In this document: in pieces, positions 13,647 to 52,305 of the stretch
Layout: the number at the start of each line of letters is the position of its first letter
Numbering within the stretch: position 1 is the stretch's first letter
NCBI GenBank assembly: GCA_028688275.1
Contig: JAQTYN010000001.1
Coordinates: 1-64,000, forward strand
DNA length: 64,000 bases
Source: Gallionella sp.
Lineage (GTDB): Bacteria > Pseudomonadota > Gammaproteobacteria > Burkholderiales > Gallionellaceae
Reading direction: 5' to 3'
Made by a program: the position numbers and the translations under genes
The notes under the pieces: generated by a model
Databases searched by the model: none
What the model saw: the letters and a program-made list of their open reading frames with translations, nothing else
What the model was told of the DNA's origin: nothing

Positions 13647-14918
13647 TTAGTGGGGCGGATTTTCGCTTAGCCAATCGTTAAATGTGGTTCGATGTTTGGC
13701 TAAGGTTAGTATTGTTTCTTCCTGTCTTAATCGCGGCTTAAATAGAAGCGGCAGTTTATCAAACATGAGTTGATGCCAGCGCAGCGGATAATATAAAAAT
13801 GCTTTTGTTGAGCGGGCATTGACAGGGAAGTTCAAAGCTATGACGGTACGGGGTGGAAATACGATTTTAACAAAAGTGGAAATCTTTCCCCATAACGATA
13901 TTGGCGATAACATTTTGTAGAAATGATGCCCTAGTGCATGGTGTGCCGCAAGTTCTGAAAACAATAAATACTCCCCAATTTCTAGCCACGCGACATCGCA
14001 TTCCTGACCACCTAATGCCTCAATCACCTCATCTGGAATATCGGCACCTAGGTTTCGCTTGGCTAAATAGAGTAGGGCGAGTGCGCAACGTCGCCAGCCG
14101 CCTGTGGAGACCGTTCCTAGGAATTTCTGCCAATCAATAGGGTGTGTTTTGACTAGAAAAGCAACATCAGCTAATGCCAGCGCGCCGAGATTAAAGTGAT
14201 GCCTGATCGTCGCGTGGATGCACAAGTGTAGCAAAAGGTCTTCGCTGCAAAGGAATCTAATCTCGGTACCCGCAATCCTTCGTGATATGCTTTTCTCCCA
14301 TGCTTGATACTCAAAGTCCTGCGCTGAGGGTATATCAGACTCAAGCAACTGGTAGTGCAACTCAATGCAGATGCCATCGGGGCTAGTGAGGGGTAGTAAA
14401 TGTCCGAATCCATCGAGGAATGACTCAGGCAACCCCTTATACGTGGGATAAGGGGAGCGATAACCGCATCCTTGTAGCAACTCAAATGCTTTTACGGCCT
14501 CTTCCTGCTTCAGTAACAAATCCAAATCGCGCATGGGTCTGAGCGCGGGGTCAGGATAAGCAAAGCGGGCGAGATACGCGCCTTTTAAGGCAATTGAAGC
14601 AATGCCTTCTGCTTCGAGTAATTGGGTTACTTTCGCTAATTCTCTATAAACCACCAAGCTACGCAAAGCACTTTTACGATAGGCACTTTTTAAATACGTG
14701 ATTACCTGTTCAGGGATAGCTTGGGCAAGATCATCGCGTTTCAGTCGATTGTGCAGCATCGCACCTAAGCGATGCTCTTTTGCAATTTTCAACAGATAAT
14801 CCCAATCTTCCGCCAGCATTAGCTGGGCAGTTGTCGTCGTGGGTAATTGTGCATTGAGATGTAATGCTTCAAAAATAAATGCTTGAGCGCGTTGATGTGT
14901 TATTTCACTGCTTGCCAT
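13647..14918 (-). CDS. Nucleotidyltransferase-like lasso-peptide tailoring protein (PsmN-like)
   Basis: The 423-residue protein belongs to the uncharacterised nucleotidyltransferase family whose core reads SIALKGAYLARFAYPDP followed by RPMRDLDLLL (about residues 112-140); the D-x-D pair is the nucleotidyltransferase metal site. This family recurs in lasso clusters that also encode an HPr-like kinase. To my recollection, a member (PsmN of the pseudomycoidin cluster) attaches hexose units to the phosphorylated C-terminus of the peptide. Its gene overlaps the exporter gene by 19 bases. Substrate here is inferred from context; a non-lasso role cannot be excluded. Confidence 0.75.
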   Translation of the reverse strand: MASSEITHQRAQAFIFEALHLNAQLPTTTTAQLMLAEDWDYLLKIAKEHRLGAMLHNRLKRDDLAQAIPEQVITYLKSAYRKSALRSLVVYRELAKVTQLLEAEGIASIALKGAYLARFAYPDPALRPMRDLDLLLKQEEAVKAFELLQGCGYRSPYPTYKGLPESFLDGFGHLLPLTSPDGICIELHYQLLESDIPSAQDFEYQAWEKSISRRIAGTEIRFLCSEDLLLHLCIHATIRHHFNLGALALADVAFLVKTHPIDWQKFLGTVSTGGWRRCALALLYLAKRNLGADIPDEVIEALGGQECDVAWLEIGEYLLFSELAAHHALGHHFYKMLSPISLWGKISTFVKIVFPPRTVIALNFPVNARSTKAFLYYPLRWHQLMFDKLPLLFKPRLRQEETILTLAKHRTTFNDWLSENPPH

Positions 14919-16600
14919 TGCCCGACTTCTCCTTTTTCAACTCGCACCACGCCATCAATCAATCCCGTCAATTCGTCTATTCTATGCGTGACAATCAGCA
15001 CGGTCATTTGTCCGTGCAAGGTGCGAATCGCGTCTAATACCAAACGATGATTATCGGGATCCAGCGCGCTGGTGGCTTCATCTAGTATCAGCAATTGCGG
15101 ACGACGCAGCAAGGCGCGCGCTAAGGCTAATCGCTGTTTTTCGCCTCCTGACAATTTCACCCCCTTTTCGCCGACTTGCGTATCTAACCCAAGCGGTAGT
15201 CGTTGCACCCAAGTCGCCAAAGCTGCTTGTGACAACGCGCGCGCAATGTCAGCCTCCTGTGCTACGGTATTTCCCCAGCTTAGATTCTCTCGAATCGTAC
15301 CGTTTTGGATTTGAGTTTCTTGCGGAATATACGCGATGCTGTGCCGCCAGCCTGACAACTGGGGCAGCGGCGTACCGTTAATCAGAATTTCACCCTGCTC
15401 AGGCATCAGCAATCCACTGAGCAAATCCAGTAAGGTCGTTTTCCCCGCCCCTGATGCGCCCACAATCGCGGTGGTTTTTCGGGCGGGAATAGACAAATTC
15501 TCAATCCGAATGGGATGATGGGCATAGCGGAAAGCGACACGTGCAAGGTGCAGACCTTCAATCAGCTGTACCGAATGACTCACCGATTGCACGGGATCAA
15601 CATTCGCTTCGCACGCATCTAGCAACTTTTGCCAAACGTCATAAGCGGGTAGCATGTGCAATAGTTGCTGTCGTCCATTTTGCAGTTCGGCGAGTTGCGG
15701 CAACATGCGTGCAAAAATAGCGATCATCACCAGCAAATCGGCTGCGGGAAGTTTAAACCAAGTCAATGCCGCATAGCTTACCACCGCCAGTGCCACGGCT
15801 CCCCCCACCCGATACACAGCTTGTACACGAGTACGAATCTGCTGAAACTCAAGAAACTGCTCACTGACTTGTTCGACCCGATGATTAAAACGTTGCGCGT
15901 TGCCCGCCTCTTCACCATGAATTTTGATCAGTTTCATGACCGAAATAAATTCTTGTATCTGGTTAAATAAGTCGCGGTTGGCTTGATTCAGCATCTTACC
16001 GCCTCGCTTGGCAGCATCGTCCGCCCTGTGTAGCAACGCCCACAACAACACACCCGTTGCGAGTGCAAGCAATGTCAATCCACCCGACAAGTGCAGTGCC
16101 ACAGTTAGGTATGCCAGCAACATCACTGCATGAGTAAAAAAACGCAACAGGAAATATGTCCCCATGCCGATACGTTGCACTTCACTGGTGAGTACGCTTA
16201 ACAATTCGCCACTGTGATGCTCCATCAGAAAACGCCAGTTTGCACGAGCAATAGCACCATATAGCTTCTTGCGCAAATGATCGCCAAAGCGCAGTTGAAG
16301 CGCATTCGATACACGATCCCGTCGCATTGCCAGTTGTGATTGAACCAAAATTAGTGCGACAAACATGAAGAGCGCGCCTTCCAGAGTCCAGTTCACACCC
16401 AATACCGCAAGCGTTGCATCAATGGGAGCCAGCCATTCTATTTTACCTCCCCCGTGTTCCATCACCCCTGCCAAAGATAGCAAAGGGAGCAGCAATAACA
16501 GCCCCGCGCCTTCGGTCAAGGCGGCAACACAATTAAGCAGTACCGCTCGCCTAATGCTAGGCGCATCAAAACGTAAAAAAGTACGTAAGTATTCTTTCAT
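14900..16600 (-). CDS. ABC exporter with fused membrane and ATPase domains (lasso-peptide transporter D)
   Basis: The 566-residue half-transporter has an N-terminal membrane domain with about six helices (to roughly residue 320). The ATPase domain carries Walker A GASGAGKTTLLDLLSG (about 380-395), Q-loop IAYIPQETQ, signature LSGGEKQRLALARALL (about 480) and Walker B LLILDEATSALD. This is the layout of the D exporter that pumps mature lasso peptides out and gives self-immunity. It overlaps the nucleotidyltransferase gene and sits in the lasso neighbourhood, so peptide export is the likely job; a general lipid or drug flippase role is the alternative. Confidence 0.82.
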   Translation of the reverse strand: MKEYLRTFLRFDAPSIRRAVLLNCVAALTEGAGLLLLLPLLSLAGVMEHGGGKIEWLAPIDATLAVLGVNWTLEGALFMFVALILVQSQLAMRRDRVSNALQLRFGDHLRKKLYGAIARANWRFLMEHHSGELLSVLTSEVQRIGMGTYFLLRFFTHAVMLLAYLTVALHLSGGLTLLALATGVLLWALLHRADDAAKRGGKMLNQANRDLFNQIQEFISVMKLIKIHGEEAGNAQRFNHRVEQVSEQFLEFQQIRTRVQAVYRVGGAVALAVVSYAALTWFKLPAADLLVMIAIFARMLPQLAELQNGRQQLLHMLPAYDVWQKLLDACEANVDPVQSVSHSVQLIEGLHLARVAFRYAHHPIRIENLSIPARKTTAIVGASGAGKTTLLDLLSGLLMPEQGEILINGTPLPQLSGWRHSIAYIPQETQIQNGTIRENLSWGNTVAQEADIARALSQAALATWVQRLPLGLDTQVGEKGVKLSGGEKQRLALARALLRRPQLLILDEATSALDPDNHRLVLDAIRTLHGQMTVLIVTHRIDELTGLIDGVVRVEKGEVGQWQAVK

Positions 16601-16662: not shown

Positions 16663-17154
16663 TCATGTGGTTGGTGAATACCAAACCATTTGTGACACGG
16701 ATGGATGGTTTGCTACCACCACAAATCCTAGGGCAAGGTAAAGTTTTAGGGCGGCGGGGTTGGTATGACTCACGTTTAACGTCAGTGAAACGTGTGCTTG
16801 TGTGGCAAGCTGTTGCAAGGCGTGTAAAACATGCGTGCCATTGCCCTGCCTTCGTGCTAGTGGCAAAAAAGCGAAGTTAATCAGATGCACTTCAATCTCG
16901 TTGATATCCATCACCACGAGTCCAACTCGCTCCCCCCATTTTTCGACTATCCAATATTGTGCATTCGGAAAAGTGCTGCGATAGCCCAGTTGCTGTGCTC
17001 GATATTGCTGCGCCAAAATCGGCAGCATCATCTCCCCCAACCCAATTAAATCATCGCGTGTCGAACGATAAAGTGTTTCCATAAACGCGCTATCGTCGTC
17101 TTGCGCGAGGCGTATAGAAAGCGGTTCGGGTAACACAGGCATCAATTTGAGCAT
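16663..17154 (-). CDS. GNAT-family N-acetyltransferase
   Basis: The protein (163 residues from the ATG at 17154) contains FMETLYRSTRDDLIGLGEMM near the N-terminus. The acetyl-CoA site follows as LPLARRQGNGTHVLHALQQL, matching the GNAT R-x-x-G-x-G/A loop, and the C-terminus is NPAALKLYLALGFVVV. No convincing ribosome-binding site distinguishes the possible starts (17211, 17154, 17142). The protein lies between the exporter and the divergent tail-collar genes. A truncated sister copy occurs at 18993-19157, on the other side of the collar genes. The substrate is unknown. Confidence 0.85.
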   Translation of the reverse strand: MLKLMPVLPEPLSIRLAQDDDSAFMETLYRSTRDDLIGLGEMMLPILAQQYRAQQLGYRSTFPNAQYWIVEKWGERVGLVVMDINEIEVHLINFAFLPLARRQGNGTHVLHALQQLATQAHVSLTLNVSHTNPAALKLYLALGFVVVANHPSVSQMVWYSPTT

Positions 17155-17281
17155 GATGGTGCAGTTGTTTAAGAAGGAAGAAAGAGGCGCGATTTTACAC
17201 CGCATTTTCATCGCAATAAGTGATGAATTATTCTCACCTAGGTGCGTAATTAAGTAGTTTCAAAAATCAATACTAAACTTA

Positions 17282-17352: not shown

Positions 17353-17868
17353 ATGGATCCGTTTTTAGGTGAAATAAGAATGATGGGGTTTGGAGTAATC
17401 CCGCGAGGTTGGGTGCTATGCGCAGGGCAAATATTGCCTGTTAGCCAAAATCAAGCACTCTTTTCATTATTGGGTGGTCAATATGGCGGTGACGGCAGAA
17501 CGACTTTTGCCTTGCCTGATTTACGTGGTCGCGTGCCTGTGTGCATGGGTTCGGCGGATGGCAGTATCAATTATGCAGTGGGCAATAAAGCGGGCGTAGA
17601 AGCTGTGACACTTACCCTTCCCCAAATGCCTGCCCATAATCACAATATGGGGGTCAATACCGCGCCAGGTACTTTTCCTGGTATCCCAGGTCACGTTTTG
17701 GCAGCAGCACCCAATAACATCTATGCCACACCCGATAGCGCGATGATTCCAATTAACCCAGCATCTGTTGTTTCCACTGGGGGAGGGCAAGGACATAGCA
17801 ATATGCAGCCCTTTGCAGTGACTAACTTTTATATTGCAACGGAGGGTCTCTACCCTCCACGCGCTTAA
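17353..17868 (+). CDS. Phage tail-collar domain protein 1 (MdpB-like)
   Basis: The first of three tandem paralogues (171 residues). It starts GEIRMMGFGVIPRGWVLCAG, continues with ALFSLLGGQYGGDGRTTFAL and PDLRGRVPV, has the short MPAHNH motif, and closes with QPFAVTNFYIATEG. This is the tail-collar fold of the microcystin-dependent (Mdp) family. The start is the ATG at 17353 with GGAGG 8-12 bases upstream; the upstream TTG-initiated extension is unlikely. No signal peptide is present. Phage collar proteins attach tail fibres, but chromosomal stand-alone Mdp proteins have no settled function. It heads the operon from the promoter at 17282. Confidence 0.92.
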   Translation: MDPFLGEIRMMGFGVIPRGWVLCAGQILPVSQNQALFSLLGGQYGGDGRTTFALPDLRGRVPVCMGSADGSINYAVGNKAGVEAVTLTLPQMPAHNHNMGVNTAPGTFPGIPGHVLAAAPNNIYATPDSAMIPINPASVVSTGGGQGHSNMQPFAVTNFYIATEGLYPPRA

Positions 17869-17883: not shown

Positions 17884-18414
17884 ATGGACGGTTTTGTTGG
17901 TGAGATCCGCATATTTGCGGGTGATTACGCTCCTGATGGATGGGCGCTTTGTAATGGGCAGGCACTTTCTGTTATGGATTATCAAGTGCTATTTGCTTTG
18001 TTGGGTACCGTCTACGGTGGGGACGGTGTGAGTACGTTTAACGTGCCTGATTTTAGAGGTCGGCTGCCTGTTGGGGCGGGACAGGGTGCAGGATTAACCC
18101 CTCGTGTACTTGGGCAACAAGGTGGTACAGAGACCGTCGCATTGAATAATGCAACCATGATGCCTCCTCACTCACACGCATTGAATGTCAGCACGCGTGC
18201 GGGGGATACCAATGTACCTAGCACCACTAAAGTCATCTCAGCTGCGGCTTCTGGCAGTGGTCTCTATGACAATAGTGCGATACCTAGCCTTAAGGTTTTT
18301 GATCCTGATGCGTGTTCTTTGGCAGGCGGAGGACAACCTCATGCTAATTTAATGCCTAGCACTTGCGTGTCGTTCATTATTGCTACCGTGGGTAACTTCC
18401 CTAGCCCCGCCTAA
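17884..18414 (+). CDS. Phage tail-collar domain protein 2 (MdpB-like)
   Basis: Second tandem paralogue, 176 residues, starting 15 bases after the first. It shares the frame GEIRIFAGDYAPDGWALCNG, ALLGTVYGGDGVSTFNVPDF, RGRLPVGAGQGAGL and MMPPHSHALNV, and ends with FIIATVGNFPSPA. The central variable part (DTNVPSTTKVISAAASGSGL) differs from its neighbours, as expected if this part faces outward and contacts ligands. An AGGGGG ribosome-binding site precedes the ATG. Confidence 0.92.
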   Translation: MDGFVGEIRIFAGDYAPDGWALCNGQALSVMDYQVLFALLGTVYGGDGVSTFNVPDFRGRLPVGAGQGAGLTPRVLGQQGGTETVALNNATMMPPHSHALNVSTRAGDTNVPSTTKVISAAASGSGLYDNSAIPSLKVFDPDACSLAGGGQPHANLMPSTCVSFIIATVGNFPSPA

Positions 18415-18430: not shown

Positions 18431-18952
18431 ATGTCAGATCCTTACATCGGAGAAATCCGTGCTTTTGGTTTTAATTATGTGCCGCAAGGTTGGGCTTTGT
18501 GTAATGGGCAACAACTTGCAGTCAACCAATATACCGCACTTTATAGCGTCATTGGCAATCGTTATGGCGGCAATCAGACCACATTTGCGCTTCCAAATCT
18601 AATGGGGCGAAGTGTCATGGGCCAAGGTCAGGGGAATGGGCTTACGCCGCGTCAGGTTGGGAATCAAACGGGTAGCAATGCTGTCGCGTTGGATGCTACT
18701 CAGCTTCCTGCTCATACGCATCCAGTGGATGGGACAAGTAGCACCACTGCGCCACTTGCTCAAGCAACTGCCAACCAGAGCTGGATTGCGCGTGAATTAA
18801 GTGCCACGATATACGCCGAATCTCCCAACACCGTACTTGCCTCACCTACTTTTGGTGTGGCTGGCTCTGGTGCTGCACACGAGAATCGTCAACCCTGTTT
18901 GGCACTTAACTTTTGTATTTGTCTCGATGGTAATTACCCTGTAAGACCTTAA
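18431..18952 (+). CDS. Phage tail-collar domain protein 3 (MdpB-like)
   Basis: Third paralogue, 173 residues, 16 bases after the second and preceded by AAAAGGAA. It has GEIRAFGFNYVPQGWALCNG, NRYGGNQTTFALPNLMGR, GQGNGLTPRQVGNQTGSN and QLPAHTHPVDGTSS, and closes with FCICLDGNYPVRP. It is the last gene of the three-gene unit, followed by an intrinsic terminator. The trio resembles the three-gene Mdp arrays known from other proteobacterial chromosomes. Confidence 0.92.
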   Translation: MSDPYIGEIRAFGFNYVPQGWALCNGQQLAVNQYTALYSVIGNRYGGNQTTFALPNLMGRSVMGQGQGNGLTPRQVGNQTGSNAVALDATQLPAHTHPVDGTSSTTAPLAQATANQSWIARELSATIYAESPNTVLASPTFGVAGSGAAHENRQPCLALNFCICLDGNYPVRP

Positions 18953-18992: not shown

Positions 18993-19157
18993 ATGTATAT
19001 CCAACCGCTTCCCGATAATTTGTCCATTCGTCCCGTGAGAGACGAAGACCATGGTTTTATGGAGTCTCTTTATCGTTCAACGCGAGATGACTTAAGGCTG
19101 CTGGCTGCCGAATGCGACTGGATTGAAAAAATGGTTTGGTATCCCCGCACCGCATAA
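18993..19157 (+). pseudogene. GNAT acetyltransferase remnant with large internal deletion
   Basis: A 54-codon frame begins LSIRPVRDEDHGFMESLYRS then TRDDLRLLAAECDWIEKM. This matches the N-terminus of the GNAT protein at 16663-17154 (LSIRLAQ, FMETLYRSTRDDL). It then jumps to the very end of that protein (MVWYPRTA against MVWYSPTT). The acetyl-CoA-binding middle of about 110 residues is missing. It starts right after the collar-gene terminator, so it is most likely a dead second GNAT copy rather than a working peptide. Confidence 0.7.
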
Positions 19158-19226: not shown

Positions 19227-21149
19227 ATGAGTGCACTTGCAGGAATTGTTCGCCTAGATGGCTCAGTAGTGGATCAAGCCGATATGCCGCGCATGATACA
19301 GGCGTTGAGCTTGTACGGAAAAGATGCGCAACGTCTTTGGCAGCAGCAAAACGTGGCGATGGCACATTTGCTATTCCGTTCCACGCCAGAGGATGATTAC
19401 GACCAACAACCTTTGTTGTCCCATGCCATCACCCTGACTTTTGCAGGGCGCATTGATAACCGTGAAGAGCTGATTAAAGCCCTCGCTATTCCCGTTCAAG
19501 AAGCCAAACAGATGGCGGACAGTGCCATTGTGTGGGCATCTTTTACGCAATGGGGTGAAGCAAGTTTTGCCCGTTTGGTGGGAGAGTTTGCTTTGGCGAT
19601 TTGGGATGCGAATGCCAAAAAACTTTTGCTTTGCCGTGATCTGAGCGGTGGTCGTCCGTTGTATTGGTATCTGCAAAACAACTTCTTTGCCTATGCTTCC
19701 ATGCCCAAAGGTTTATTCGCTTTAGGTCGTATTCCCATACAAATCAACGAAGAACGTCTGGCAGACTTTTTAGTCAATTTGCCACTAACGGGATCGCAAA
19801 GCCTATATCAACATATCCAACGGGTAGAACCAGGGCACTACCTCGTACTGGAGCAGGGGCAAGTACGCGATGTGTGCTTTCACCGTTATGACCCCGAAAG
19901 ACGCATCGAGCTCCCCTCGGACGATGACTATGTAGAAGCGTTCAAAGAGAAATTTGAAGAGGCGGTGCGCTGTCGCTTAAGAAGCAGAGGGGGCATTGGC
20001 TCACAATTAAGTTCTGGTTTCGACAGCAGCACAGTCACGGCCATGGCAGCCAAGTTGCTGGGCGAGCAACAGCTCACCGCTTTTACCGCAGTCCCCAAAG
20101 TAGGATTTTCGGTTGAAATCCCCAAGGGAACGCACGCGGATGAGTTTCCGCTGGCAGCTGCGTTAGCTGCACGTCATACCAATATCAACCATGTTGCGGT
20201 ACGGGCGAAGGGGGGATTACTGGACGAGCTAAGTTCAATCATCCACTATTCTGATCGCCCATTTAAAAACTTGGCAAATTTAGGCTGGTGGCAAGCTTTA
20301 CTGGACGACGCATCGGCACGCGGTATTCGTGTCATGCTGACAGGGCAGCTAGGCAATATGGGCTTGTCTTGGGATGGAACCGCTTTACTGCCAAACTTGT
20401 TGGCGCAAGGGGAAATGCACCGTTGGGTGCAGGAAGCGATAGCGACTCGGCAAGTGGCAGGCTGGTCGTGGAAGCGCATTGTTTTTAATTCCATTGAGCC
20501 TTTCTTACCCGATGCAATATGGCAAGTCATTGACCAATGGCGTGGTCAGCCTTATTCGCTTGCCAGCTATTCTGCTATTCATCCCCAATTTGCCCAACAA
20601 ATGGCGATTCGGCAACGTGCACAGTTGGCGGGACACGATTTAAATTTTCGGGGATTTAGCGATAGTCGTGCCGTGCGTTGCAACGTATTGCGCTTCATGG
20701 CGGAAGTCGGAGACAACCGCATGGCAACACTCGCTAAAACAGGCATAGAACTGCGTGATCCCACCGCTGATTTACGTTTTCTGGAGTTTTGTCTTGCCAT
20801 TCCTGAGGCGCAGTTTATGCGCAAGGGACAAAATCGCTTTTTGCTCAAGCGCGCTTATGGGCAGATGCTGCCCCAGGTCACCTTGGAATGCAAAACAAAA
20901 GGATTTCAGGGGGCAGACTGGAAAGCTCATGTGATCGCATCGCAAGCAGAAATTCGCACCGTGTTAACACAGTGTGATGCGTCCCCGTTAGCGTCACGCG
21001 CGATTGACCTTGAGGGATTGAATAGTTTGATAGAGGCGTATGTGACGAACCAAAAAAGCAGCTCGTTCAATCGAATCAAGCTGCTTCAAGGCATTTCAGC
21101 AGGAAAGTTTGTGCTACAAGTCGAAAATCAGTATCCCCAATCGTTATGA
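19227..21149 (+). CDS. Lasso cyclase C (asparagine-synthetase-like)
   Basis: The 640-residue protein has an N-terminal class II amidotransferase-like domain (about residues 1-200) that begins MSALAGIVRLDG. The catalytic Cys2 of true asparagine synthetases is Ser here, so it cannot hydrolyse glutamine. The synthetase domain (about 220-620) keeps the ATP-pyrophosphatase motif LSSGFDSSTVTAMAA. In lasso pathways this enzyme adenylates the ring Asp/Glu and closes the macrolactam with the new N-terminus of the core. It runs opposite to the other lasso genes and its last 6 bases overlap the 3' end of the precursor gene. Confidence 0.88.
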   Translation: MSALAGIVRLDGSVVDQADMPRMIQALSLYGKDAQRLWQQQNVAMAHLLFRSTPEDDYDQQPLLSHAITLTFAGRIDNREELIKALAIPVQEAKQMADSAIVWASFTQWGEASFARLVGEFALAIWDANAKKLLLCRDLSGGRPLYWYLQNNFFAYASMPKGLFALGRIPIQINEERLADFLVNLPLTGSQSLYQHIQRVEPGHYLVLEQGQVRDVCFHRYDPERRIELPSDDDYVEAFKEKFEEAVRCRLRSRGGIGSQLSSGFDSSTVTAMAAKLLGEQQLTAFTAVPKVGFSVEIPKGTHADEFPLAAALAARHTNINHVAVRAKGGLLDELSSIIHYSDRPFKNLANLGWWQALLDDASARGIRVMLTGQLGNMGLSWDGTALLPNLLAQGEMHRWVQEAIATRQVAGWSWKRIVFNSIEPFLPDAIWQVIDQWRGQPYSLASYSAIHPQFAQQMAIRQRAQLAGHDLNFRGFSDSRAVRCNVLRFMAEVGDNRMATLAKTGIELRDPTADLRFLEFCLAIPEAQFMRKGQNRFLLKRAYGQMLPQVTLECKTKGFQGADWKAHVIASQAEIRTVLTQCDASPLASRAIDLEGLNSLIEAYVTNQKSSSFNRIKLLQGISAGKFVLQVENQYPQSL

Positions 21150-21299
21150 GTTGCCACCCGAACCATCATTGCCTCCCAGCACGGTAAGTTCGGTCATGTC
21201 ATCAACGGAAAACACCCCTACTTCAGGCATTTCCCAGTGTTTTTTTGCTTGCATTTCGGGGCATTGATTTTCTGTGGCGAGTGTTATTTCAGGTTTCAT
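21144..21299 (-). CDS. Putative lasso-peptide precursor A (51 residues)
   Basis: The gene was found by reading the gap between cyclase and sulfotransferase. ATG at 21297-21299 has AAAGGA 9-14 bases upstream; stop TAA at 21144-21146. The N-terminal leader contains HWEMPEV, close to the YxxPxL signal that PqqD-like B1 proteins bind. The end reads TE-LTVLGGNDGSGGNS. With Thr36 in the usual position two before the cut, cleavage after Glu37 gives a 14-residue core. Its Asp is at position 8, so an 8-residue ring with a GSGGNS tail is possible. The last residue is Ser, the phosphate acceptor in paeninodin-type peptides. The cleavage site is inferred; no other cut gives an acid at positions 7-9. Confidence 0.72.
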   Translation of the reverse strand: MKPEITLATENQCPEMQAKKHWEMPEVGVFSVDDMTELTVLGGNDGSGGNS

Positions 21300-21441
21300 A
21301 GCGACTATCCTTTATTAAAGTGGTATTTTTAAAGTTAAATAAGTGCTTGGATGTATTGATGATAAATCTAAGCAGTCCGAATGCTACCAAAACCTTCTCC
21401 CCAAAGCCATCTTTTATATTGTGGCGGCGAAGGGGTACTGT

Positions 21442-22278
21442 TTACCCCAATGACAGATATCCCAATTCACGCATCATCTCCGCATGATGCGTTTCAATTT
21501 GTTCAATCTGTGCGGTGCTGAGGGTGTCTTGCCAACCGCCCGCGATGCCGCGTCGGAAGAATTGCTTGGCATTGGGCGGTTTTTCGGCAAAACCGTTGAT
21601 TGCTTCTAAGTCGTGTAGGCGGTCAAACTGTACGGTTTGCACAGCGGCAGCGATTTGTTCAGGCGTGACAGTCAATTTCAGAAAGTCAGCAATTTCGCTA
21701 AATCGGGTAATGGGGTCAGCGAGTAGGTCTTCGTACTTGACCAACAACACGGGAATGGGGGCGTTCAGCCAGCTTTGTACATGTTGTTGCCAAGTCAATA
21801 AACGTTGGGGTAACTGGCTTTGCATTCGGAGCTTGGCATGCTCCATCACCGCAGTGGGGTCGTTCATACGGGTGATGGCTTGGTCTATATCTTGCGCCAG
21901 ATGGTGTGCTAACGACACCGTCACATCGCGCGGATCTCGCACCAAATACACCGCCCCCAAAGTGAGTTCAGGTGGAAAAAGCGGCTTGCCTGCGGGAGTC
22001 AAATGCCACGCATCATGAGCTTTCCGAAACATGGGTCGAGTGGCGGCGTTGGCTTCAATCTGATACAAACAGGGGCGGGCGTTGGTAATTTCATCGTCGG
22101 TTAAATCTGACGAGGGGATGTCCAGTAAGCGATCAAATTCAGCGCGTACTGCCGCATGTCCCCCCGCTCTTTTCAGGCGGTTAATGTCCAGCGTACCCGC
22201 CAACAAAGCCTCTAAAAACAAGCGCACCCATGTATTGCCCGATTTGGGATACGAGGCAATCCAGTAAAAACCGTTCAT
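21442..22278 (-). CDS. Sulfotransferase (lasso-peptide tailoring candidate)
   Basis: The 278-residue protein carries the 5'-phosphosulfate loop WIASYPKSGNTWVRLFLEAL at its N-terminus and the 3'-phosphate motif VYLVRDPRDVTVSLAHHL (about residues 108-125). It ends with the family C-terminal element FFRRGIAGGWQDTLS. It should transfer sulfate from PAPS to a hydroxyl group. It sits 7 bases downstream of the HPr-like kinase gene and just upstream of the precursor gene. A Ser or Thr of the core, or a sugar added by the nucleotidyltransferase, is the inferred acceptor. Confidence 0.85.
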   Translation of the reverse strand: MNGFYWIASYPKSGNTWVRLFLEALLAGTLDINRLKRAGGHAAVRAEFDRLLDIPSSDLTDDEITNARPCLYQIEANAATRPMFRKAHDAWHLTPAGKPLFPPELTLGAVYLVRDPRDVTVSLAHHLAQDIDQAITRMNDPTAVMEHAKLRMQSQLPQRLLTWQQHVQSWLNAPIPVLLVKYEDLLADPITRFSEIADFLKLTVTPEQIAAAVQTVQFDRLHDLEAINGFAEKPPNAKQFFRRGIAGGWQDTLSTAQIEQIETHHAEMMRELGYLSLG

Positions 22279-22285: not shown

Positions 22286-23209
22286 CTATCCGTGTGATTT
22301 CAGTCCACGCACACAGGCTTCGACCTGAGCCGCGAAGGTATCCAATTCGCTTAATGGCGCACCTTTGCGTCTGGGTAAGGTATAGACGGGGGCAAGTTGT
22401 GCCAGTTTGGCAATGGAGGAGAACAAGACGGGTTTTGGCTGAATGTGTTGCCCCACCGCACGCCGATAAATCATGTTGTCCAGCAACGCCATGGATTTTG
22501 CCGAAGACAGCCGCTCTGGTGCGCCAAAGGGTCCAATCGGGCTGACATTCAGTACAAAAACCGCTGCGGGGGCAATCGGCGCGGTGCTGAAATCGGCAAA
22601 GGCTGGAACGCGGAATTTGACTTGCCCCACTCGATGCGTCAACAAACCTTCGTGCGACATTTGCAAAACATTCAGCACGTCGGGTGTGAGTTTACGTTGC
22701 GGATAGGCGGGCAATAGCTGCCCATTTTTGGGGTCTATCGCCGCGACATCGTCAGACAACAAAGCATGTCCGCGTGCGCCCAGTGCCGCTGCCAAGGTAG
22801 ATTTGCCTGCGCCCGAAATGCCCGCAATCAACACCGCGACTTCGTCGATCCGTACCGCCGAGGCGTGTATCGGCAAATAGCCGCGCTGGTGACACAACAC
22901 CCCCAATACCGATCCCAAAATAAAGGCGCGTAATTCCGCTTCAGGGCAATCGGGGGCGGGTTCAACTAACACTTGCCTACCTTGTGCCACCCAAAACCGC
23001 CCCACGCCATCTAATTCCAATAGGAAATCGCCATTGCGCCATAAGCGACTGTGCGGCAAGACCAATATCGGCACGTCTGTTGGGGCAGGGATGTCCGCTA
23101 CGCGGATATCAATATCCACAGGGCGGTCATCACCCATCCAAGGCATCAGTTCTGGCAATGGCAAGGTAGAACACACCCGCCAGCCACATAAAATTAAATC
23201 GTGATTCAT
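22286..23209 (-). CDS. HPr-kinase-like protein (lasso-peptide C-terminal Ser kinase candidate)
   Basis: The 307-residue protein has a P-loop of the HPr kinase type, IAGISGAGKSTLAAALGARG (about residues 131-150), followed by ALLSDDVAAID, which holds the acidic catalytic pair. The N-terminal 120 residues are the variable domain of this subgroup. PadeK and ThcoK of this family phosphorylate the C-terminal Ser of lasso precursors. Here the precursor ends in Ser, which fits. It is 7 bases upstream of the sulfotransferase gene and 21 downstream of the PqqD-like gene. Confidence 0.85.
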   Translation of the reverse strand: MNHDLILCGWRVCSTLPLPELMPWMGDDRPVDIDIRVADIPAPTDVPILVLPHSRLWRNGDFLLELDGVGRFWVAQGRQVLVEPAPDCPEAELRAFILGSVLGVLCHQRGYLPIHASAVRIDEVAVLIAGISGAGKSTLAAALGARGHALLSDDVAAIDPKNGQLLPAYPQRKLTPDVLNVLQMSHEGLLTHRVGQVKFRVPAFADFSTAPIAPAAVFVLNVSPIGPFGAPERLSSAKSMALLDNMIYRRAVGQHIQPKPVLFSSIAKLAQLAPVYTLPRRKGAPLSELDTFAAQVEACVRGLKSHG

Positions 23210-23230: not shown

Positions 23231-23515
23231 TTACGACTGAATCGTAATCAGTTTTTCTGAGGCTAGTTTTTTCAAAAGAATCAAAATATCGCGTTGGATC
23301 GTGTCTAAATTGGCATCATATTCCTGACCTAATTTGACACATAAATCCGTCACGGTGATTGGCTGATCTAAACGCTGCCAAACATCGCTGGCAATGGCAT
23401 CCAAGTCACAATAATTGCCTTGCTCTATGGACATAATGACCAAACCACCGTCGATTGCGGTGGCGAGATGGTTGTTGCAACGACAAATTGTTGAGGTTGA
23501 AGAGAGTGTGGTCAT
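23231..23515 (-). CDS. PqqD-like RiPP recognition protein (lasso B1)
   Basis: The 94-residue protein is a winged-helix PqqD relative: LVIMSIEQGNYCDLDAIASD, VWQRLDQPITVTDLCVKLGQ and IQRDILILLKKLASEKLI cover the beta-strands and helices of the RiPP recognition element. B1 binds the precursor leader and presents it to the B2 protease. Downstream of the methyltransferase gene and upstream of the kinase gene on the same strand. Confidence 0.9.
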   Translation of the reverse strand: MTTLSSTSTICRCNNHLATAIDGGLVIMSIEQGNYCDLDAIASDVWQRLDQPITVTDLCVKLGQEYDANLDTIQRDILILLKKLASEKLITIQS

Positions 23516-23605: not shown

Positions 23606-24364
23606 TTACACCGCTATTTTCTTAAATACACGCGGATTGTCATAGGGAACTAGGCTGCGTTGGTTGTTGCAATCAAAAATCGGACGGTCGCGTTGTTTAC
23701 GCGGGGGATTTTCAATCGGCAGGTATTTCGCGGCGACGCTGGCATCTTCAAAGCGGTAATCAGCGTTGTCGATCACGAACACCCCTCCTAGGCGCAATCG
23801 CTCATCCAGAAGTGTCACTTGGGCATCGAAGCGATGAAAAGGGTAAATCTGACTGCTGTCGGTGGTGTCGGGCAGGCGATTTTCGGTACGTTGTAGCACC
23901 GCCATACAGAAAATTGCGTCGTATTGCCCCTGTGCAGGCAGCTCGGTACAGAAAATCATGCGTGCATCCTTTTGCCGACTGGCACGCGCCAATCGGATAT
24001 TGCGACGGTTAATGTCCACCCCCACCAATTCTGCATGTGGGAAATGCTCTCTGAGCGAAAAAACCTCTTCTCCCGTCGAACAACCAAAAGAAAGCAGGGT
24101 CAGCGGCTGTGCCGCCGCAAAATACTCGGCACAGGCGCGAAACACGATGGGATAACGATGTGGGGTGGTGTAGTTGACCAATTGGTGAGCGTGCTGCCCT
24201 GCGGTTAGCTTGGTCATGACTACCGAACGATGGTTGCCATCCGTGACGAGTCTTTTAATTTGGAATGGTTTCTTAAGTGTCCAATACAAGGCGCGTAATA
24301 GTGGGCTACTCGCATCTTTAAAAGTGCGTACTTGATTTTTCAGTTGGGTAAAGTGTTTATTCAT
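23606..24364 (-). CDS. SAM-dependent methyltransferase (lasso-cluster tailoring candidate)
   Basis: From the ATG at 24362-24364 (252 residues) the protein has a class I methyltransferase fold: LTLLSFGCSTGEEVFSLREH (motif I), ELVGVDINRRNIRLARASR (motif II) and YDAIFCMAVLQRTE. The GCSTGEE variant resembles CheR-like enzymes. The start overlaps the B2 stop by 8 bases, so it belongs to the lasso operon. Known lasso methyltransferases act on the C-terminal carboxylate or side chains, but this one's target is not evident. The longer upstream start (24415) lies inside B2 and is less likely. Confidence 0.8.
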   Translation of the reverse strand: MNKHFTQLKNQVRTFKDASSPLLRALYWTLKKPFQIKRLVTDGNHRSVVMTKLTAGQHAHQLVNYTTPHRYPIVFRACAEYFAAAQPLTLLSFGCSTGEEVFSLREHFPHAELVGVDINRRNIRLARASRQKDARMIFCTELPAQGQYDAIFCMAVLQRTENRLPDTTDSSQIYPFHRFDAQVTLLDERLRLGGVFVIDNADYRFEDASVAAKYLPIENPPRKQRDRPIFDCNNQRSLVPYDNPRVFKKIAV

Positions 24365-24830
24365 GTTGAGCAGGGGAAGCGTGGAGCGCAGAAGTAAAGC
24401 AACTGACCACGGCAAAGCTTGTGAAGCTTTCTCCTCCAGTCACTCGCACACGCCCCGCCGCCACCCAAGCGTGCGCGGCGAAAGGCGCAGTTTGCACCCC
24501 AAAAAATAGGCTATAAGGGATGTTATACCAAGCTAACAACAGTCGAGCGGTCAAGGCTTGCGGAAAACAATTGGATTCCCAAGGGGTATAACGCGCAGCA
24601 GTTTGTACCACCTTGCCCAAGGCAATCGCTCGGAGGGTTTGTACGGGTGAAATGAGTGGGACAAATGACGCGACACCTAATTGGGTGCCAAAATAGGGAG
24701 CGAAATAGCGTAGCGGGATGGTTTTAATGATCAAACGATGAAACCCCAGCAGCAACCACGCGGGCAATAACCAAAACAATTCAAATCGCGGGCGACGCAG
24801 GAGGTTTGGCAGTTTATGGAGTGGCATCAT
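24357..24830 (-). CDS. Lasso-peptide leader protease B2 (transglutaminase-like)
   Basis: The 157-residue protein has the B2 signature: Cys in WESNCFPQALTARLLLAWYN (about residue 88) and His in AAHAWVAAGRVRVTGG (about residue 121), followed by a conserved Gly-rich turn. This is the Cys-His pair of the transglutaminase-like cysteine protease. A hydrophobic N-terminal helix (LFWLLPAWLLLGFH) precedes it. It releases the core by cutting after the leader. It is the first gene of the minus-strand set B2-methyltransferase-B1-kinase-sulfotransferase-precursor. Confidence 0.9.
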   Translation of the reverse strand: MMPLHKLPNLLRRPRFELFWLLPAWLLLGFHRLIIKTIPLRYFAPYFGTQLGVASFVPLISPVQTLRAIALGKVVQTAARYTPWESNCFPQALTARLLLAWYNIPYSLFFGVQTAPFAAHAWVAAGRVRVTGGESFTSFAVVSCFTSALHASPAQHE

Positions 24831-35695: not shown

Positions 35696-36772
35696 CTAGC
35701 TTTTAGTCTTATGGTGTTTTCGTCGTATCGTAGGAGTGTAGCGACGTTTCTTGAGTAAACGTTTATCTAGTTGCTGCCAGATTTCGATTGTTGATGCTGT
35801 TCTCATTTTTTGAATATGCCGACGCTTTCGCCACATTTTCGGTAAGTCCAAGACGGCATCACGCTTTGCACGATAGACAACCTTACCATGACCTTTTAAC
35901 ATAAACCACAACAACGTGCCAATATTCATGGATAAATGCAAGGGAAGTAATAGCCAAAATAAAGCACCTGGCATATTTTTGACATAAGTCCACACCAAAT
36001 TACGATGCCCATGATACATCGCAAAATCGCTGCGCCCACCACCCGTGGTGCCAGATCCCACATGATGCGCTACCGATAAAGGAACAAATAGACTCCTGTG
36101 TCCATTTAGCCTTAATCGAAAGCCAATATCCACGTCTTCCACATAACAGAAATAGTCTTCATCGAAGCCACGACTCTTTAACAAAGCACTACAGCGATAT
36201 AGAGCAGCAGCGGCACAAGGGGAAAATACCTCACATTCATGCTCGATCACGTCGGAAATAGTAATGCCATGCCCCATACGCCAAACAAGACCGCTCATAT
36301 GATAAGCATCCCCTGCGCCATCAAGGTGAGTGGGCGATTCCGCTTGAACCAGTTTGCTACCGAAAACATCAAATGTCGGATTGCGCTGAGCTGCCGCCAG
36401 CAACTCCTCCAACCAACGTGGTTCTGCAAATGCATCGGGATTGAGCAACGCAATCCATTCTGAGTCTTTTGAGGCCATTTCAATAGCTAAATTATTACCG
36501 CGCGCAAAACCTGTGTTCTGATCAAGGATCAGCAATTGAGCCAAGGGAAATTTATGTACGATTTTGGCTGAATCATCTGTACTCGCATTGTCGACTACAA
36601 TAATTTTGTGCGGCATGACTGTCTGCTGCATCAGTGCAGTTAGGCATTGTTCAAGGAACTCTTCGCCATTCCAATTAACGATAATGACGGTAACATTTTC
36701 AGGCATAGTTCTCATTGGACTTTCAATCTCGTTTGCTTCTTCATACCGCGTGCTTTCATCAATCACATTCAT
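35696..36772 (-). CDS. Glycosyltransferase family 2 (rhamnosyltransferase-like)
   Basis: From the ATG at 36770-36772 (358 residues; the TTG three codons upstream is less likely) the protein has a GT-A fold: VTVIIVNWNGEEFLEQCLTA, KIIVVDNASTDDSAKIVHKF, WIALLNPDAFAEPRWLEEL, and CYVEDVDIGFRLRLNGHRSL with the ED-containing catalytic element. A membrane-associated hydrophobic stretch near residue 280 (GALFWLLLPLHLSMN) and a basic C-terminus suggest membrane attachment. It is the last gene of the polysaccharide operon and starts 2 bases after the previous gene's stop codon. Donor sugar unknown; NDP-rhamnose or galactofuranose are typical of this subgroup. Confidence 0.88.
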   Translation of the reverse strand: MNVIDESTRYEEANEIESPMRTMPENVTVIIVNWNGEEFLEQCLTALMQQTVMPHKIIVVDNASTDDSAKIVHKFPLAQLLILDQNTGFARGNNLAIEMASKDSEWIALLNPDAFAEPRWLEELLAAAQRNPTFDVFGSKLVQAESPTHLDGAGDAYHMSGLVWRMGHGITISDVIEHECEVFSPCAAAALYRCSALLKSRGFDEDYFCYVEDVDIGFRLRLNGHRSLFVPLSVAHHVGSGTTGGGRSDFAMYHGHRNLVWTYVKNMPGALFWLLLPLHLSMNIGTLLWFMLKGHGKVVYRAKRDAVLDLPKMWRKRRHIQKMRTASTIEIWQQLDKRLLKKRRYTPTIRRKHHKTKS

Positions 36773-36774
36773 GC

Positions 36775-37197
36775 TCAACAAAATCGCGTGTCTGATACTA
36801 GCACAGGCAAGGACTCGCCTAACACAAACGTAGGCTGCTCATTTTTCAGCTTCTTTTCTATATCCGTCAAAATAAGGTACATTTCTTTGGCGGCTCCGCT
36901 GGCTACATTGATAAGCGCGGTATTTTTTTCACCATCGTCGGGATAGTCATGGGCGAACTTATTGCGGGTATGACGAATATGCTGCCAGATTTCCGCGTGT
37001 AGCTTAGTCTGAAAAGCAATTTCAGCGCGCATGATCGCCGCAACATCCACTGAACTTGTTTCAATCAAAAGATCAATGTCGCCGCCCCGCTTGCTCGCAT
37101 CCACCCTTGATCCAAACAACCACACACGAGCATCCATGCCAAAAATTTCAGCAACAGTGGCGCGAATGATGGTTTGTTGTTGAGTAGTTAGGTGCAT
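36775..37197 (-). CDS. Nucleotidyltransferase-HEPN fusion remnant (MntA/HepT-type toxin-antitoxin debris)
   Basis: The 140-residue protein joins two halves that are normally separate genes. Residues about 1-55 (IIRATVAEIFGMDARVWLFG then SRVDASKRGGDIDLLIE) are the start of a minimal nucleotidyltransferase with the GSRVDASKRGGDID motif. Residues about 75-135 (IWQHIRHTRNKFAHDYPDDG then EKNTALINVASGA) are the end of a HEPN protein with its RNKFAH (R-x4-H) active-site motif. The rest of both is missing, so it probably arose by deletion. It sits between two glycosyltransferase genes and overlaps the upstream one by 10 bases. It may be non-functional. Confidence 0.7.
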   Translation of the reverse strand: MHLTTQQQTIIRATVAEIFGMDARVWLFGSRVDASKRGGDIDLLIETSSVDVAAIMRAEIAFQTKLHAEIWQHIRHTRNKFAHDYPDDGEKNTALINVASGAAKEMYLILTDIEKKLKNEQPTFVLGESLPVLVSDTRFC

Positions 37198-38021
37198 TTA
37201 TTGATTATTAAGTGTGGATTGTAATTGCCCAAACAAGCCCGCACCAGTACCGCTAACACAGAAAGATTCCCTTTGACGCTACTGATCTTGGTAGGCACCT
37301 CTCCTTTTGGATAGCAGCGTTTGGTTGGAATCTCAACGCACTGATAACCCAGTTTGGGTGCACGGTAAGAAAGGTACGCTAATAATTCATATGTCATAAA
37401 GATGTCTCGAAACAGAGCAATTTTTACATCTAGTAACATTTTTCGACTGTAAGCGCGAAAACCCTGTGTGGTATCGGTCCAGTGAAATCCAGAAAACAGA
37501 CTTAACATCGGCGCGTGAATGAAACGAATGGCAAAATCCCGTGACTTTGGCGTATTTTCGGCAAGACCGCCCGAAATGAAACGTGAGGCTTGCACAAAAT
37601 CGACTCCATTTTTCAGCGCATTTATAAATTGGGGGATAGCCTCAGGATCGTCTTTATCATTGCCATCAATGGTAACAATCCCTTCATATCCTTGGTCGAG
37701 TGCAAACCCATATGCGCAGCGCAATTGAGCACTTAACTTCCCCGAACCCGTCTTGATTAGCAAGCCTCTTACACCATGTACTTGAAGTCGTTTACTCGCT
37801 AACGAGCCATCCGTACTACCCCCATCTACGATAATGATGTCCGCAAAAGTATCAACTTTGAGTGCCGCCATTTTACTGAGTAAGCTATTGATTCGTTCAC
37901 CCTCATTGATGACGGGAATGACTACACACCAAGGATGCTGACGACCAAGCCACCACTGTATTTCAAAAGTGGGCATCTGCCAATGAGCGCGAATTTCTGG
38001 TGCAATATCTGACTGATTCAT
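37188..38021 (-). CDS. Glycosyltransferase family 2 (dolichyl-phosphate mannosyltransferase-like)
   Basis: The 277-residue protein has CVVIPVINEGERINSLLSKM, IIIVDGGSTDGSLASKRLQV, LDQGYEGIVTIDGNDKDDPE with the D-x-N/D acceptor region, and FHWTDTTQGFRAYSRKMLLD, a pattern of polyprenyl-phosphate sugar transferases. It likely builds a lipid-linked sugar for the surface polysaccharide at the inner membrane. No trans-membrane tail is present, unlike its relative at 41241-42257. Confidence 0.88.
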   Translation of the reverse strand: MNQSDIAPEIRAHWQMPTFEIQWWLGRQHPWCVVIPVINEGERINSLLSKMAALKVDTFADIIIVDGGSTDGSLASKRLQVHGVRGLLIKTGSGKLSAQLRCAYGFALDQGYEGIVTIDGNDKDDPEAIPQFINALKNGVDFVQASRFISGGLAENTPKSRDFAIRFIHAPMLSLFSGFHWTDTTQGFRAYSRKMLLDVKIALFRDIFMTYELLAYLSYRAPKLGYQCVEIPTKRCYPKGEVPTKISSVKGNLSVLAVLVRACLGNYNPHLIINKCT

Positions 38022-38043
38022 TTGTTTGATTTCTTCTATTTAT

Positions 38044-38400
38044 TTAGGTCACGCGAACCGTGATAAGTGCGACACCAACAACTACTAACAAAATACCCGC
38101 GATGGTTGTCCAATGAAATTCCTCGTGAAAAATGAGTAAAGAACACAAGGCAACCGCTGCCACTGCGCCAGATGTTAGTATCGGATGCGCAACATTTAAA
38201 GGCAATCTAGCTAGAGCTGCGGCGTAGAGTAAAAATGCTATGCCATACAATCCCAACCCCAACCAAAATGGCCAATTACTAAGTGCGACCATTGGTTCAC
38301 TCAGTGATGGAAATTTGCGCGGGGGCAGCATGGCAATTTTGACCAAGACACTTGCCGAGGCATTTGATGCAATGCCGAGGATAAGGATAAGCCATTTCAT
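38044..38400 (-). CDS. SMR/EamA-type small membrane transporter (ArnE/F-like)
   Basis: The 118-residue protein has four hydrophobic helices (MKWLILILGIASNASASVLV, WPFWLGLGLYGIAFLLYAAA, PILTSGAVAAVALCSLLIFH, TIAGILLVVVGVALITVRVT), the layout of the small multidrug-resistance family and of ArnE/ArnF flippase subunits. Within a polysaccharide locus and overlapping the sugar isomerase gene by 4 bases, it may move a lipid-linked sugar or precursor across the inner membrane. Substrate unknown. Confidence 0.8.
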   Translation of the reverse strand: MKWLILILGIASNASASVLVKIAMLPPRKFPSLSEPMVALSNWPFWLGLGLYGIAFLLYAAALARLPLNVAHPILTSGAVAAVALCSLLIFHEEFHWTTIAGILLVVVGVALITVRVT

Positions 38401-39233
38401 ACAAAACCCCCATCATCGCCATGACGGTAGTGTTGAACAGCCACCTTTAACGCACGCTCAATTGACACTAAGTGCGACTCATTCTTCGTTGCTAACATTT
38501 CAATCGAAACAATGTGTTCTGGTAGTTTATGTTCCAACACGATTGCGATTGCAGCATGATCGGTATCTTTATCACCCAAAGGTGCAATATCGGGTTCACT
38601 GGCGTGAATATGACCTATCAATTCTGCGTTATCATGCAATACGGTTTTAATATCTTCGCCATTGATTGTTAGCGCACCAATGTCTAACTGCATTTGTATT
38701 GCAGGATGAGCAATTTTTCTTACCACCTCCGCTGTTTCAGCACTGGTCGTCATAAAATTTGCGCCATAACAGGTGGGGTTAGGCTCTAGGCAAACAATAA
38801 CGTGATATGAGAGTGCAATATCCCCCAGTCGTCTAAAGAACGAGCTAGCTATTTCCATTGATTGCTCATTGCTCAAACCACTGCGATCTCGGTTTTTGGG
38901 TGAGCCGAACACTAAACGAGTCGCGCCCAAGCCTGTGCCAATGCGGCACACGGCAGTAAGATGTGTCAGCATCGCATCTTGCGAGGCAGTTGATCCAAAT
39001 ACATTCAATCCCGTTGTACCAAACAACAACGCTTGCATCCCCGTAATTTCTATTCCCCGCTCGCTCCACCAGTTTTTTACGCGAGCAATTTCTGGATCAG
39101 TCGCGTTGACTGGATCAGAAAAATACTTTCCTGGTGCAATATCAATTGCATCAACAGCGTAGCGTTTAAGCAATCGCGCAATCTCTTCATCTTCAGAGGT
39201 ATCCCACGCGATATTAGAAATAGCGAGCCTCAT
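38397..39233 (-). CDS. Sugar phosphate isomerase/epimerase-like TIM-barrel protein
   Basis: The 278-residue protein starts RLAISNIAWDTSEDEEIARL and has TRLVFGSPKNRDRSGLSNEQ, HVIVCLEPNPTCYGANFMTT, MQLDIGALTINGEDIKTVLH, and IGHIHASEPDIAPLG. This is an AP-endonuclease-family-2/xylose-isomerase-like TIM barrel that uses metal-binding Glu and His residues. It presumably isomerises or epimerises a sugar intermediate for the locus. Starts and ends overlap its neighbours by 4 bases. Confidence 0.85.
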   Translation of the reverse strand: MRLAISNIAWDTSEDEEIARLLKRYAVDAIDIAPGKYFSDPVNATDPEIARVKNWWSERGIEITGMQALLFGTTGLNVFGSTASQDAMLTHLTAVCRIGTGLGATRLVFGSPKNRDRSGLSNEQSMEIASSFFRRLGDIALSYHVIVCLEPNPTCYGANFMTTSAETAEVVRKIAHPAIQMQLDIGALTINGEDIKTVLHDNAELIGHIHASEPDIAPLGDKDTDHAAIAIVLEHKLPEHIVSIEMLATKNESHLVSIERALKVAVQHYRHGDDGGFV

Positions 39234-40030
39234 GCCTTTACTCCTTGCGCTACGTTAAGTGTACGAGGCTCTGACTGCGCGTATCCTCGAACAGCTTGAA
39301 TAGTTTCACGGCGGCTATATTGATAGCTTCCCGCACCACCAAAAACACCTGCATATTTGGTCTGCATATCGTAAACCGCAGGGCTATTGGGTTGTGCCTG
39401 CACAAACGGTTTACCAAAGCCTAGTTCTGAAATATCAACAACACTCACGGGCTCGGCAGTTAGGTGTACCAATGTAATGCCTGCATTTAGGGCGAGCTGG
39501 ATGTCGTACCAAAGATTCGCCATTGGATAGAATTGAAAAATTCCCCGACTGTCAATTGTATGAAGATTATTGTCATTCAAAAAATCAAAAATTACGTTCT
39601 TCTTCAATCCCGTGCCGACTAAACCAGGTAAGCGCACGATTAAGTGGCGTGGAAAGTGACTTTCGACAAATTTTTCTAGCAAGCGACGATGCAAGCCGTA
39701 AGCATGAAGCCCAATCTCATCAACAGGCGTATCTTCATTTACGCCAATTGGATTTTTGAATACGTCAACGGTGCTGATTAGCACAAAGGTGTTGCACGTC
39801 ATCGACTTTAAATGCGCAATCAAACCCTCGATCTTTTTCCGATCTGCTTCAGGTTCACGATTGGCTATCCACTTTTGTGCGGGTGCTCCAGCACAAACAA
39901 CCATGTTAAAAGAGTTACCTGCAATATCGCCGATATTGGTTGAGCGATAAAGTGAGGTAAAGAAGGCTTGCTTTTGTAGTGTTGACCCGACAAAACCAGA
40001 ATAGCCAATCAACGCGTTCGTTAAGTTCAT
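39230..40030 (-). CDS. NAD-dependent epimerase/dehydratase-like (extended SDR) protein
   Basis: The 266-residue protein starts with a nucleotide-binding loop (NALIGYSGFVGSTLQKQ, the G-x-x-G-x-x-G motif) and continues FVLISTVDVFKNPIGVNEDT, where Ser/Thr is in the catalytic region. YGLHRRLLEKF gives the Y-x3-K-like site as Y-x3-R. The C-terminal VVDISELGFGKPFV is of the NAD-sugar type. The missing catalytic Lys is unusual, so it may be a divergent reductase. Overlaps the isomerase gene by 4 bases. Confidence 0.75.
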   Translation of the reverse strand: MNLTNALIGYSGFVGSTLQKQAFFTSLYRSTNIGDIAGNSFNMVVCAGAPAQKWIANREPEADRKKIEGLIAHLKSMTCNTFVLISTVDVFKNPIGVNEDTPVDEIGLHAYGLHRRLLEKFVESHFPRHLIVRLPGLVGTGLKKNVIFDFLNDNNLHTIDSRGIFQFYPMANLWYDIQLALNAGITLVHLTAEPVSVVDISELGFGKPFVQAQPNSPAVYDMQTKYAGVFGGAGSYQYSRRETIQAVRGYAQSEPRTLNVAQGVKA

Positions 40031-40113
40031 TTTATAGTCACCCTCTCTAATCTAGTTGCATTGCATAACGGAGGTAATTGTTTAAATCCACCAACCAAGT
40101 GTTGTTCTGAAAA

Positions 40114-41238: not shown

Positions 41239-41240
41239 CG

Positions 41241-42257: not shown

Positions 42258-42333
42258 GGCTTGTCTTTAGATAAGTCCTAGTGTAGTAAAGTACGACATG
42301 CGGCAACTGACCTTTATCTGGCGTGGTATATTT

Positions 42334-46929: not shown

Positions 46930-46935
46930 GACTCA

Positions 46936-52269: not shown

Positions 52270-52305
52270 ATTTGTACTACAAAATGTAATTTGAACATAT
52301 CTACT

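Follow-up and report, generated by a model that had tools for sequence, protein, structure and literature searches.

A short conserved frame as the probable lasso peptide precursor of a Gallionella gene cluster with a kinase-sulfotransferase pair and phage-tail-collar genes

The DNA analysed (hereafter the window) is a stretch of 64,000 nt from Gallionella sp. and carries a lasso-like gene cluster with genes for a cyclase, B1, B2, a kinase, a sulfotransferase and a methyltransferase. The lasso cyclase (C), an asparagine-synthase-type protein, is encoded on the plus strand (19227-21149) and matched PF00733, PF13537 and PF13522 over their cut-offs. It converges on a minus-strand run of six genes, in the order B2, methyltransferase, B1, kinase, sulfotransferase and a short frame. 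The transglutaminase-like B2 leader peptidase (24357-24830) matched NF033537 (85 bits, cut-off 33) and PF13471. The PqqD-like, leader-binding B1 protein (23231-23515) matched PF05402 (58.1 bits, cut-off 23.4) and TbiB1 (5v1u, E 4.9e-7). The SAM methyltransferase (23606-24370; PF08242, 38.2 bits, cut-off 30) is a possible tailoring enzyme.

The sulfotransferase (21442-22278; PF00685, 100 bits) had Teg14 and Teg12 as best solved matches. A motif scan found SYPKSGNTW, KAHD, RDPRD and RRGIAGGW, which by comparison with SULT enzymes comprise the PAPS-binding motifs and the catalytic His of a PAPS-dependent sulfotransferase. The HprK-like kinase (22286-23209; PF07475, 36.1 bits, cut-off 33.3) contains H...GKST...DD, and these His-Lys-Asp-Asp residues fit the motif of the lasso kinases acting on a C-terminal Ser as described in PMC9266682.

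Counting against the assignment, neither the cyclase nor B1 nor the kinase reached the curated cut-off of the NCBIfam model closest to it. The best model for the cyclase was the lasso cyclase NF033535 (355.5 bits, cut-off 525). B1 reached 59 bits with the lasso-specific NF033536 (cut-off 80) and the kinase 52.2 bits with TIGR04352 (cut-off 200); no curated lasso-kinase model was over its cut-off. The window's genome contains a single PF13471 (B2-type) match and, on another contig, a second, weak cyclase relative (27% identity). An ABC transporter on the minus strand (14900-16600; PF00005, PF00664), a possible product exporter, has a strong match adjoining the cluster of locus L024 (E 5e-218).

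The gap between the cyclase and the sulfotransferase is filled by the last gene of the run, a minus-strand frame with an ATG start (21144-21299; 51 codons plus stop), which overlaps the cyclase end by 6 bases, tail-to-tail. It encodes MKPEITLATENQCPEMQAKKHWEMPEVGVFSVDDMTELTVLGGNDGSGGNS. A ribosome-binding site, AAAGGA, lies at 21308-21313, 8 bases upstream of the ATG. The initial annotation had proposed a 51-residue frame with a ribosome-binding site in this gap, and we found it with the same sequence. The predicted leader (residues 1-37; 21189-21299) and the predicted core (21147-21188) are MKPEITLATENQCPEMQAKKHWEMPEVGVFSVDDMTE and LTVLGGNDGSGGNS, respectively. The leader would end in Thr36-Glu37, which places Thr36 two residues before the putative cut (-2). 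The core would form a Leu1-Asp8 lactam ring with a six-residue tail; its sequence divides into LTVLGGND and GSGGNS. Thr(-2), Asp8 and the terminal Ser had all been pointed out before and are present. The leader motif HWEMPEV had been likened to YxxPxL. A motif of this kind does exist (WEMPEV; 21219-21236), with Trp replacing Tyr; it follows the pattern W-x-x-P-x-[VLIMF] and spans -16 to -11, and YxxPxL is placed at -17 to -12 in PMC10368454. By analogy with YxxPxL in that paper, WEMPEV is expected to bind the PqqD-like B1.

We formulated a motif rule (aromatic-x-x-P-x-[VLIM], a Thr at fixed spacing, a core of 11-26 residues and an acid at position 7-9). The rule was matched by two of the 690 window frames of at least 30 codons, the second of which belongs to the end of a protein of 749 residues. 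No other frame matching the motif rules was found near the window's cluster. A set of 60 Markov sequences, each 64 kb long, gave 32 matches to the rule, four of them with a final Ser. Scaled to the 292-base gap, this gives a chance expectation of about 0.002 (0.0003 with a final Ser). In other loci, nearly all of them fetched for their cyclases and with a few stretches counted twice, 53 of 11,850 frames matched. As the rule was devised after the frame had been seen, conservation in a second genome is the stronger evidence. The frame had no family match in NCBIfam or Pfam, which counts against a lasso precursor. There was no sign of structured RNA between the sulfotransferase and the precursor (z 0.30; 117 of 200 shuffles folded equally well), and no compositional step around the cluster (GC 0.48-0.53 across 10 to 28 kb). 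Further along the window, GC drops to 0.40-0.46 (36000-54000).

A syntenic locus (L005) was found in a Gallionella metagenome assembly, with 90.5% DNA identity over 9.75 kb. Its frame (L005:11918-12073) has the leader MKPEITLATENKAPEMQAKKHWKMPEVKVFSVDDMTE and the core GTTGPGTDGSGGVS. The frame, the ribosome-binding site, Thr(-2), Asp8, GSGG and the last Ser were all retained. In the leader, 33 of 37 residues were identical (31 codons identical, 2 synonymous and 4 replaced). Of the eight ring codons, three were identical and five replaced, including that of residue 1 (Leu to Gly). The tail, GSGGVS in L005, had four identical codons, one synonymous and one replaced. For the leader, dN was 0.07 and dS 0.11; for the core, the values were 0.54 and 0.26, respectively. 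The counts are low, and no significance is claimed. A kept leader and a kept Asp8 with a variable ring is the pattern predicted for a lasso precursor.

Frames of this kind were also found beside other cyclases. A mechanical search covered 97 distinct loci, each with a cyclase or a sulfotransferase, leaving out second copies and off-target loci (L001, L002, L003, L004, L084, L085, L086, L087 and L097). W-type frames (leader with W-x-x-P-x-[VLIMF]) numbered 46 in 39 loci, including loci beside homologous cyclases in other Pseudomonadota, and Y-type frames 31 in 25 loci; some frames from this search were plainly spurious. In 34 of the 97 loci, the mechanical search gave neither type, which counts against the precursor reading. 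An acid stood 21-25 residues past the Trp in 35 of the 46 W-type frames, and 29 of these 35 ended in Ser, versus 1 of the 11 without the acid (Fisher p 2e-5, kinship ignored). Among acid-bearing Y-type frames, the final Ser was present in 12 of 27. A final Ser is thus common, but no rule. Example cores, with the cut placed by us, are GMLNPGNDGAGTSTLS (L024), LNSNHTSDNGNSLS (L033), LSIAGSHGDGALTYPSLS (L028) and TRSGSGGDSISGVTS (L101).

Three Ancylobacter frames (L022:9354-9626, L027:9554-9724 and L029:9564-9719) apparently have Ala instead of the usual Thr at -2, given the predicted cut. Exceptions at this position are known, with Ile/Val(-2) described in PMC10368454. In Pseudomonas sp. PDM16 (L012:6953-12121), four precursor-like frames with cores of 13-16 residues lie by two close cyclases. 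A cyclase at E 1e-60 was absent from all four other sampled genomes of the window's genus, which makes the distribution of the cluster patchy. Plasmid relatives of the cyclase were considered and set aside: the seven records found were each below 60% identity.

Given the conservation in L005 and the W-x-x-P-x-[VLIMF] frames by homologous cyclases, the frame very probably encodes the substrate on which the neighbouring lasso enzymes act. On sequence grounds, we regard it as highly likely to be the precursor of a proteobacterial lasso peptide with a Leu1-Asp8 ring. The initial annotation had read it as a lasso precursor too and had named the lack of a conserved leader in other genomes as one result that would refute this reading; a conserved leader was found, both in L005 and in frames by cyclases elsewhere. 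Its two reservations did not hold. It had called a Leu as first residue uncommon; this is ruled out as an oddity, since citrulassin (LLGLAGND...) and lagmysin (LAGQGSPD...) begin with Leu in a table of PMC12427821 and the sister frame in L005 has Gly1. L028 and L033 also begin with Leu, given our placement of the cut. It had suspected an atypical ring, and the predicted ring has an ordinary eight residues. The citrulassin ring (LLGLAGND; PMC12427821) can be set beside LTVLGGND of the window, a comparison made by eye only; ring residue 8 of citrulassin follows from the citrulassin A variant D8E (PMC8498205). The tails of citrulassin and lagmysin are bulky, whereas that of the window is not. Both peptides come from Streptomyces and its kin. 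What is unusual formed no part of that earlier argument, namely the pairing of a kinase with a sulfotransferase, the small tail and the phage-tail-collar genes.

The kinase and the sulfotransferase form a near-constant pair. In 30 of 32 distinct sulfotransferase loci, most of them assigned to Pseudomonadota from record title or sample, an HprK-like gene lay just upstream of the sulfotransferase on the same strand; the exceptions were L098 (reversed order) and L032 (with a gap). Where the listed genes overlap, by as much as some 600 bases, this stems from the choice of the longest frame. A cyclase was present in 31 of the 32 loci, a linkage that is partly due to selection, as 28 or so were fetched for their cyclase. 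The narrow pattern H...GKST...DD fitted 18 of 30 kinases, the window's among them, and SYPKSGNTW or SFPKSGNTW was found in 31 of the 32 sulfotransferases. A profile search detected the sulfotransferase in 4 of 369 genomes of the class. In one locus (L094:12459-13946, minus strand), a tryptophan halogenase gene (PF04820, 317 bits) lies near the lasso cyclase, kinase and sulfotransferase of G441.

This pairing suggests a phosphorylated, perhaps sulfated product. The target of HprK-type lasso kinases is the C-terminal Ser of the still linear precursor, also in Proteobacteria (PMC8498205, PMC9266682). The kinase BsfK phosphorylates Ser3 and not the C-terminal Ser (PMC10368454), which counts against a fixed site at Ser14. 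In the window, B1 would bind the leader via WEMPEV, and B2 would cut behind Thr36-Glu37. Before cyclization, the kinase probably phosphorylates Ser14 of the linear precursor. The cyclase would then form the lactam between the Leu1 amino group and the Asp8 side chain, closing a ring of eight residues and leaving GSGGNS as the tail. The sulfotransferase may modify a Ser or Thr within the core, a carboxyl may be the target of the methyltransferase, and the ABC transporter may export the product. We consider phosphorylation of Ser14 rather probable; for sulfation of the core, the balance is close and tips slightly towards no. As the core has no Tyr, the candidate positions for a sulfate, should the peptide carry one, are Thr2, Ser10 and Ser14.

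The cluster is very probably a variant of the phosphorylated proteobacterial lasso type. The phosphorylated lassos, such as paeninodin and SyanA/SyanK of Sphingobium yanoikuyae, likewise combine a cyclase, a leader peptidase, an HprK-type kinase and a precursor with a C-terminal Ser, and are known from Proteobacteria too (PMC8498205, PMC9266682). Unlike these, the window cluster has a sulfotransferase paired with the kinase, a methyltransferase, a Trp in the leader motif, a tail of GSGGNS only and collar genes alongside. A putative sulfotransferase gene also adjoins lasso genes in Firmicutes clusters; in PMC8498205, it is named only as a flanking gene, whereas here it is a near-constant kinase partner in 32 loci. 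In the available text of the review PMC9266682, neither "sulfat" nor "sulfotransferase" occurs, and in that of PMC8498205 "sulfotransferase" occurs once and "sulfat" never. A sulfated lasso, if made, would be new to both, as far as these texts go. Tyrosine-sulfated peptides are listed as a class apart in PMC9484694.

Three other explanations were weighed. That the frame arose by chance between two converging gene ends, with the real substrate elsewhere, might be read from the missing family match and the 6-base overlap with the cyclase end. It is highly improbable: the frame, the leader, Thr(-2), Asp8 and the final Ser are kept in L005, similar frames adjoin other cyclases and nothing else near the window's cluster satisfies the motif rules. 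A different question is what the kinase and the sulfotransferase act on. Their target could be a lipid, a carrier or the collar proteins, which are a conceivable substrate, and the lasso would otherwise be plain. One of the four sulfotransferase genomes among the 369 would fit this (G586), with kinase, sulfotransferase and PqqD genes together and no lasso cyclase within the 19 kb fetched (L095, G586:C73). Against another target speak the kinase just upstream of the sulfotransferase in 30 of 32 loci, the cyclase in 31 (in part by selection) and the frequent final Ser in cores; we hold it to be unlikely.

The third concerns the tail. An unmodified thread without a bulky residue would be weakly held, and GSGGNS consists of Gly, Ser and Asn only. 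Hence the product may be unthreaded, a phosphate or sulfate may serve as a stopper, or Asn13 may suffice. The enzymes would, in the first of these cases, make a branched-cyclic lactam with an unthreaded tail, as GSGGNS could not hold the thread. The small tails GSGGVS in L005 and GTGTS in L022 (given our placement of the cut) would agree with this. However, lasso cyclases work on a pre-folded precursor, several relatives have tails that contain Phe, Tyr, Leu or Ile, and a phosphate or sulfate could, as a conjecture, be the stopper. An unthreaded lactam therefore appears quite improbable. For the same relatives, a group-wide rule of tails without bulky residues was rejected as not general; the weak-tail issue is limited to the window core and a few others.

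Three consecutive phage-tail-collar genes lie on the plus strand (17353-17868, 17884-18414 and 18431-18952), all with PF07484 over the cut-off, and a GNAT acetyltransferase gene stands beside them (16663-17211, minus strand; PF00583). The second collar protein matched the collar domain of the T4 gp12 short tail fibre (1ocy, E 1.9e-7 over residues 5-78); unlike T4 gp12, the window's collar genes adjoin a peptide cluster. Collar genes were found beside lasso clusters in the window, L005, L021, L022, L024, L026-L029, L033, L068, L093, L094 and L098-L105. The 21 distinct collar-bearing loci, seven of which (within L098-L105) were fetched because they were linked, had three collar genes in 17 cases, two in two and one in two (L027 was counted with two, since one frame spans two genes). 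GNAT was present in 15 of the 21. Among the 34 loci with at least 5 kb on either side of the cyclase, 10 had collar genes.

The phylum sample comprised 398 genomes; 53 of these carried 63 cyclase places at E 1e-60, and at least 100 carried a collar gene. At least 10 of the 63 places were within 15 kb of a collar gene; without the window, at least 9 of 62, in seven genomes, versus 0.15 to 1.3 expected (p 1e-13 to 1e-5), assuming 0.35 to 3 collar clusters per genome and a mean genome of 4.2 Mb. The query profile (A3) was built mostly from collar-linked loci and favours such cyclases. In this sample, the association of collar genes and cyclases is beyond chance. Most collar genes of the phylum sample did not lie near such cyclases, and stand-alone collar sets exist (L088-L092, with GNAT in three of the five fetched). 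In the class sample, 26 of 274 genomes had a collar gene. Three of the four class genomes with the sulfotransferase, the window's and those of L093 and L094, have a collar gene near the lasso genes.

Among 63 collar proteins of ordinary length placed in a FastTree, those of lasso-linked sets tended to cluster according to whether their gene was the first, second or third of the set; support was mostly weak, with stars on 9 of 60 branches. The 34 well-flanked loci had sulfotransferase and collar genes together in 8 cases, sulfotransferase only in 4, collar only in 2 and neither in 20 (Fisher p 0.0009). This co-occurrence was not significant once kinship was allowed for (seven pairs, median p 0.25); the nine collar-label changes on the kinship tree are a biased count, as the tree includes loci fetched as linked. 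One functional module could unite the lasso cluster with the three collar genes and, in many cases, GNAT; in it, a phosphorylated and sulfated lasso would act with or on small phage-tail-fibre-like proteins, its acidic groups perhaps being the stopper missing from the tail. We consider this tentative and somewhat unlikely.

For a lasso peptide with collar terms, no paper was found in the open-licence PMC literature. In PMC10040529, the lasso B2, sulfotransferase, PqqD and asparagine synthase families are among gene clusters tied to halotolerance, and in the available text tail fiber protein is listed apart, with no stated link to the lasso families. Through the precursor, a silent cluster becomes open to testing, and a kinase-sulfotransferase pair found in many genomes gains a likely substrate. 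The recurrence of the collar genes, if functional, would tie a peptide natural product to phage-tail-like proteins. Both the pair and the collar genes merit a second look.

A 54-residue plus-strand frame (18993-19157), which follows the third collar gene and precedes the cyclase, had no Pfam match and resembled parts of the GNAT at 16663-17211 (E 6e-8). By eye, it looks like a GNAT remnant that has lost its middle. A short piece similar to it is also present in L005 (9779-9916; E 2e-5).
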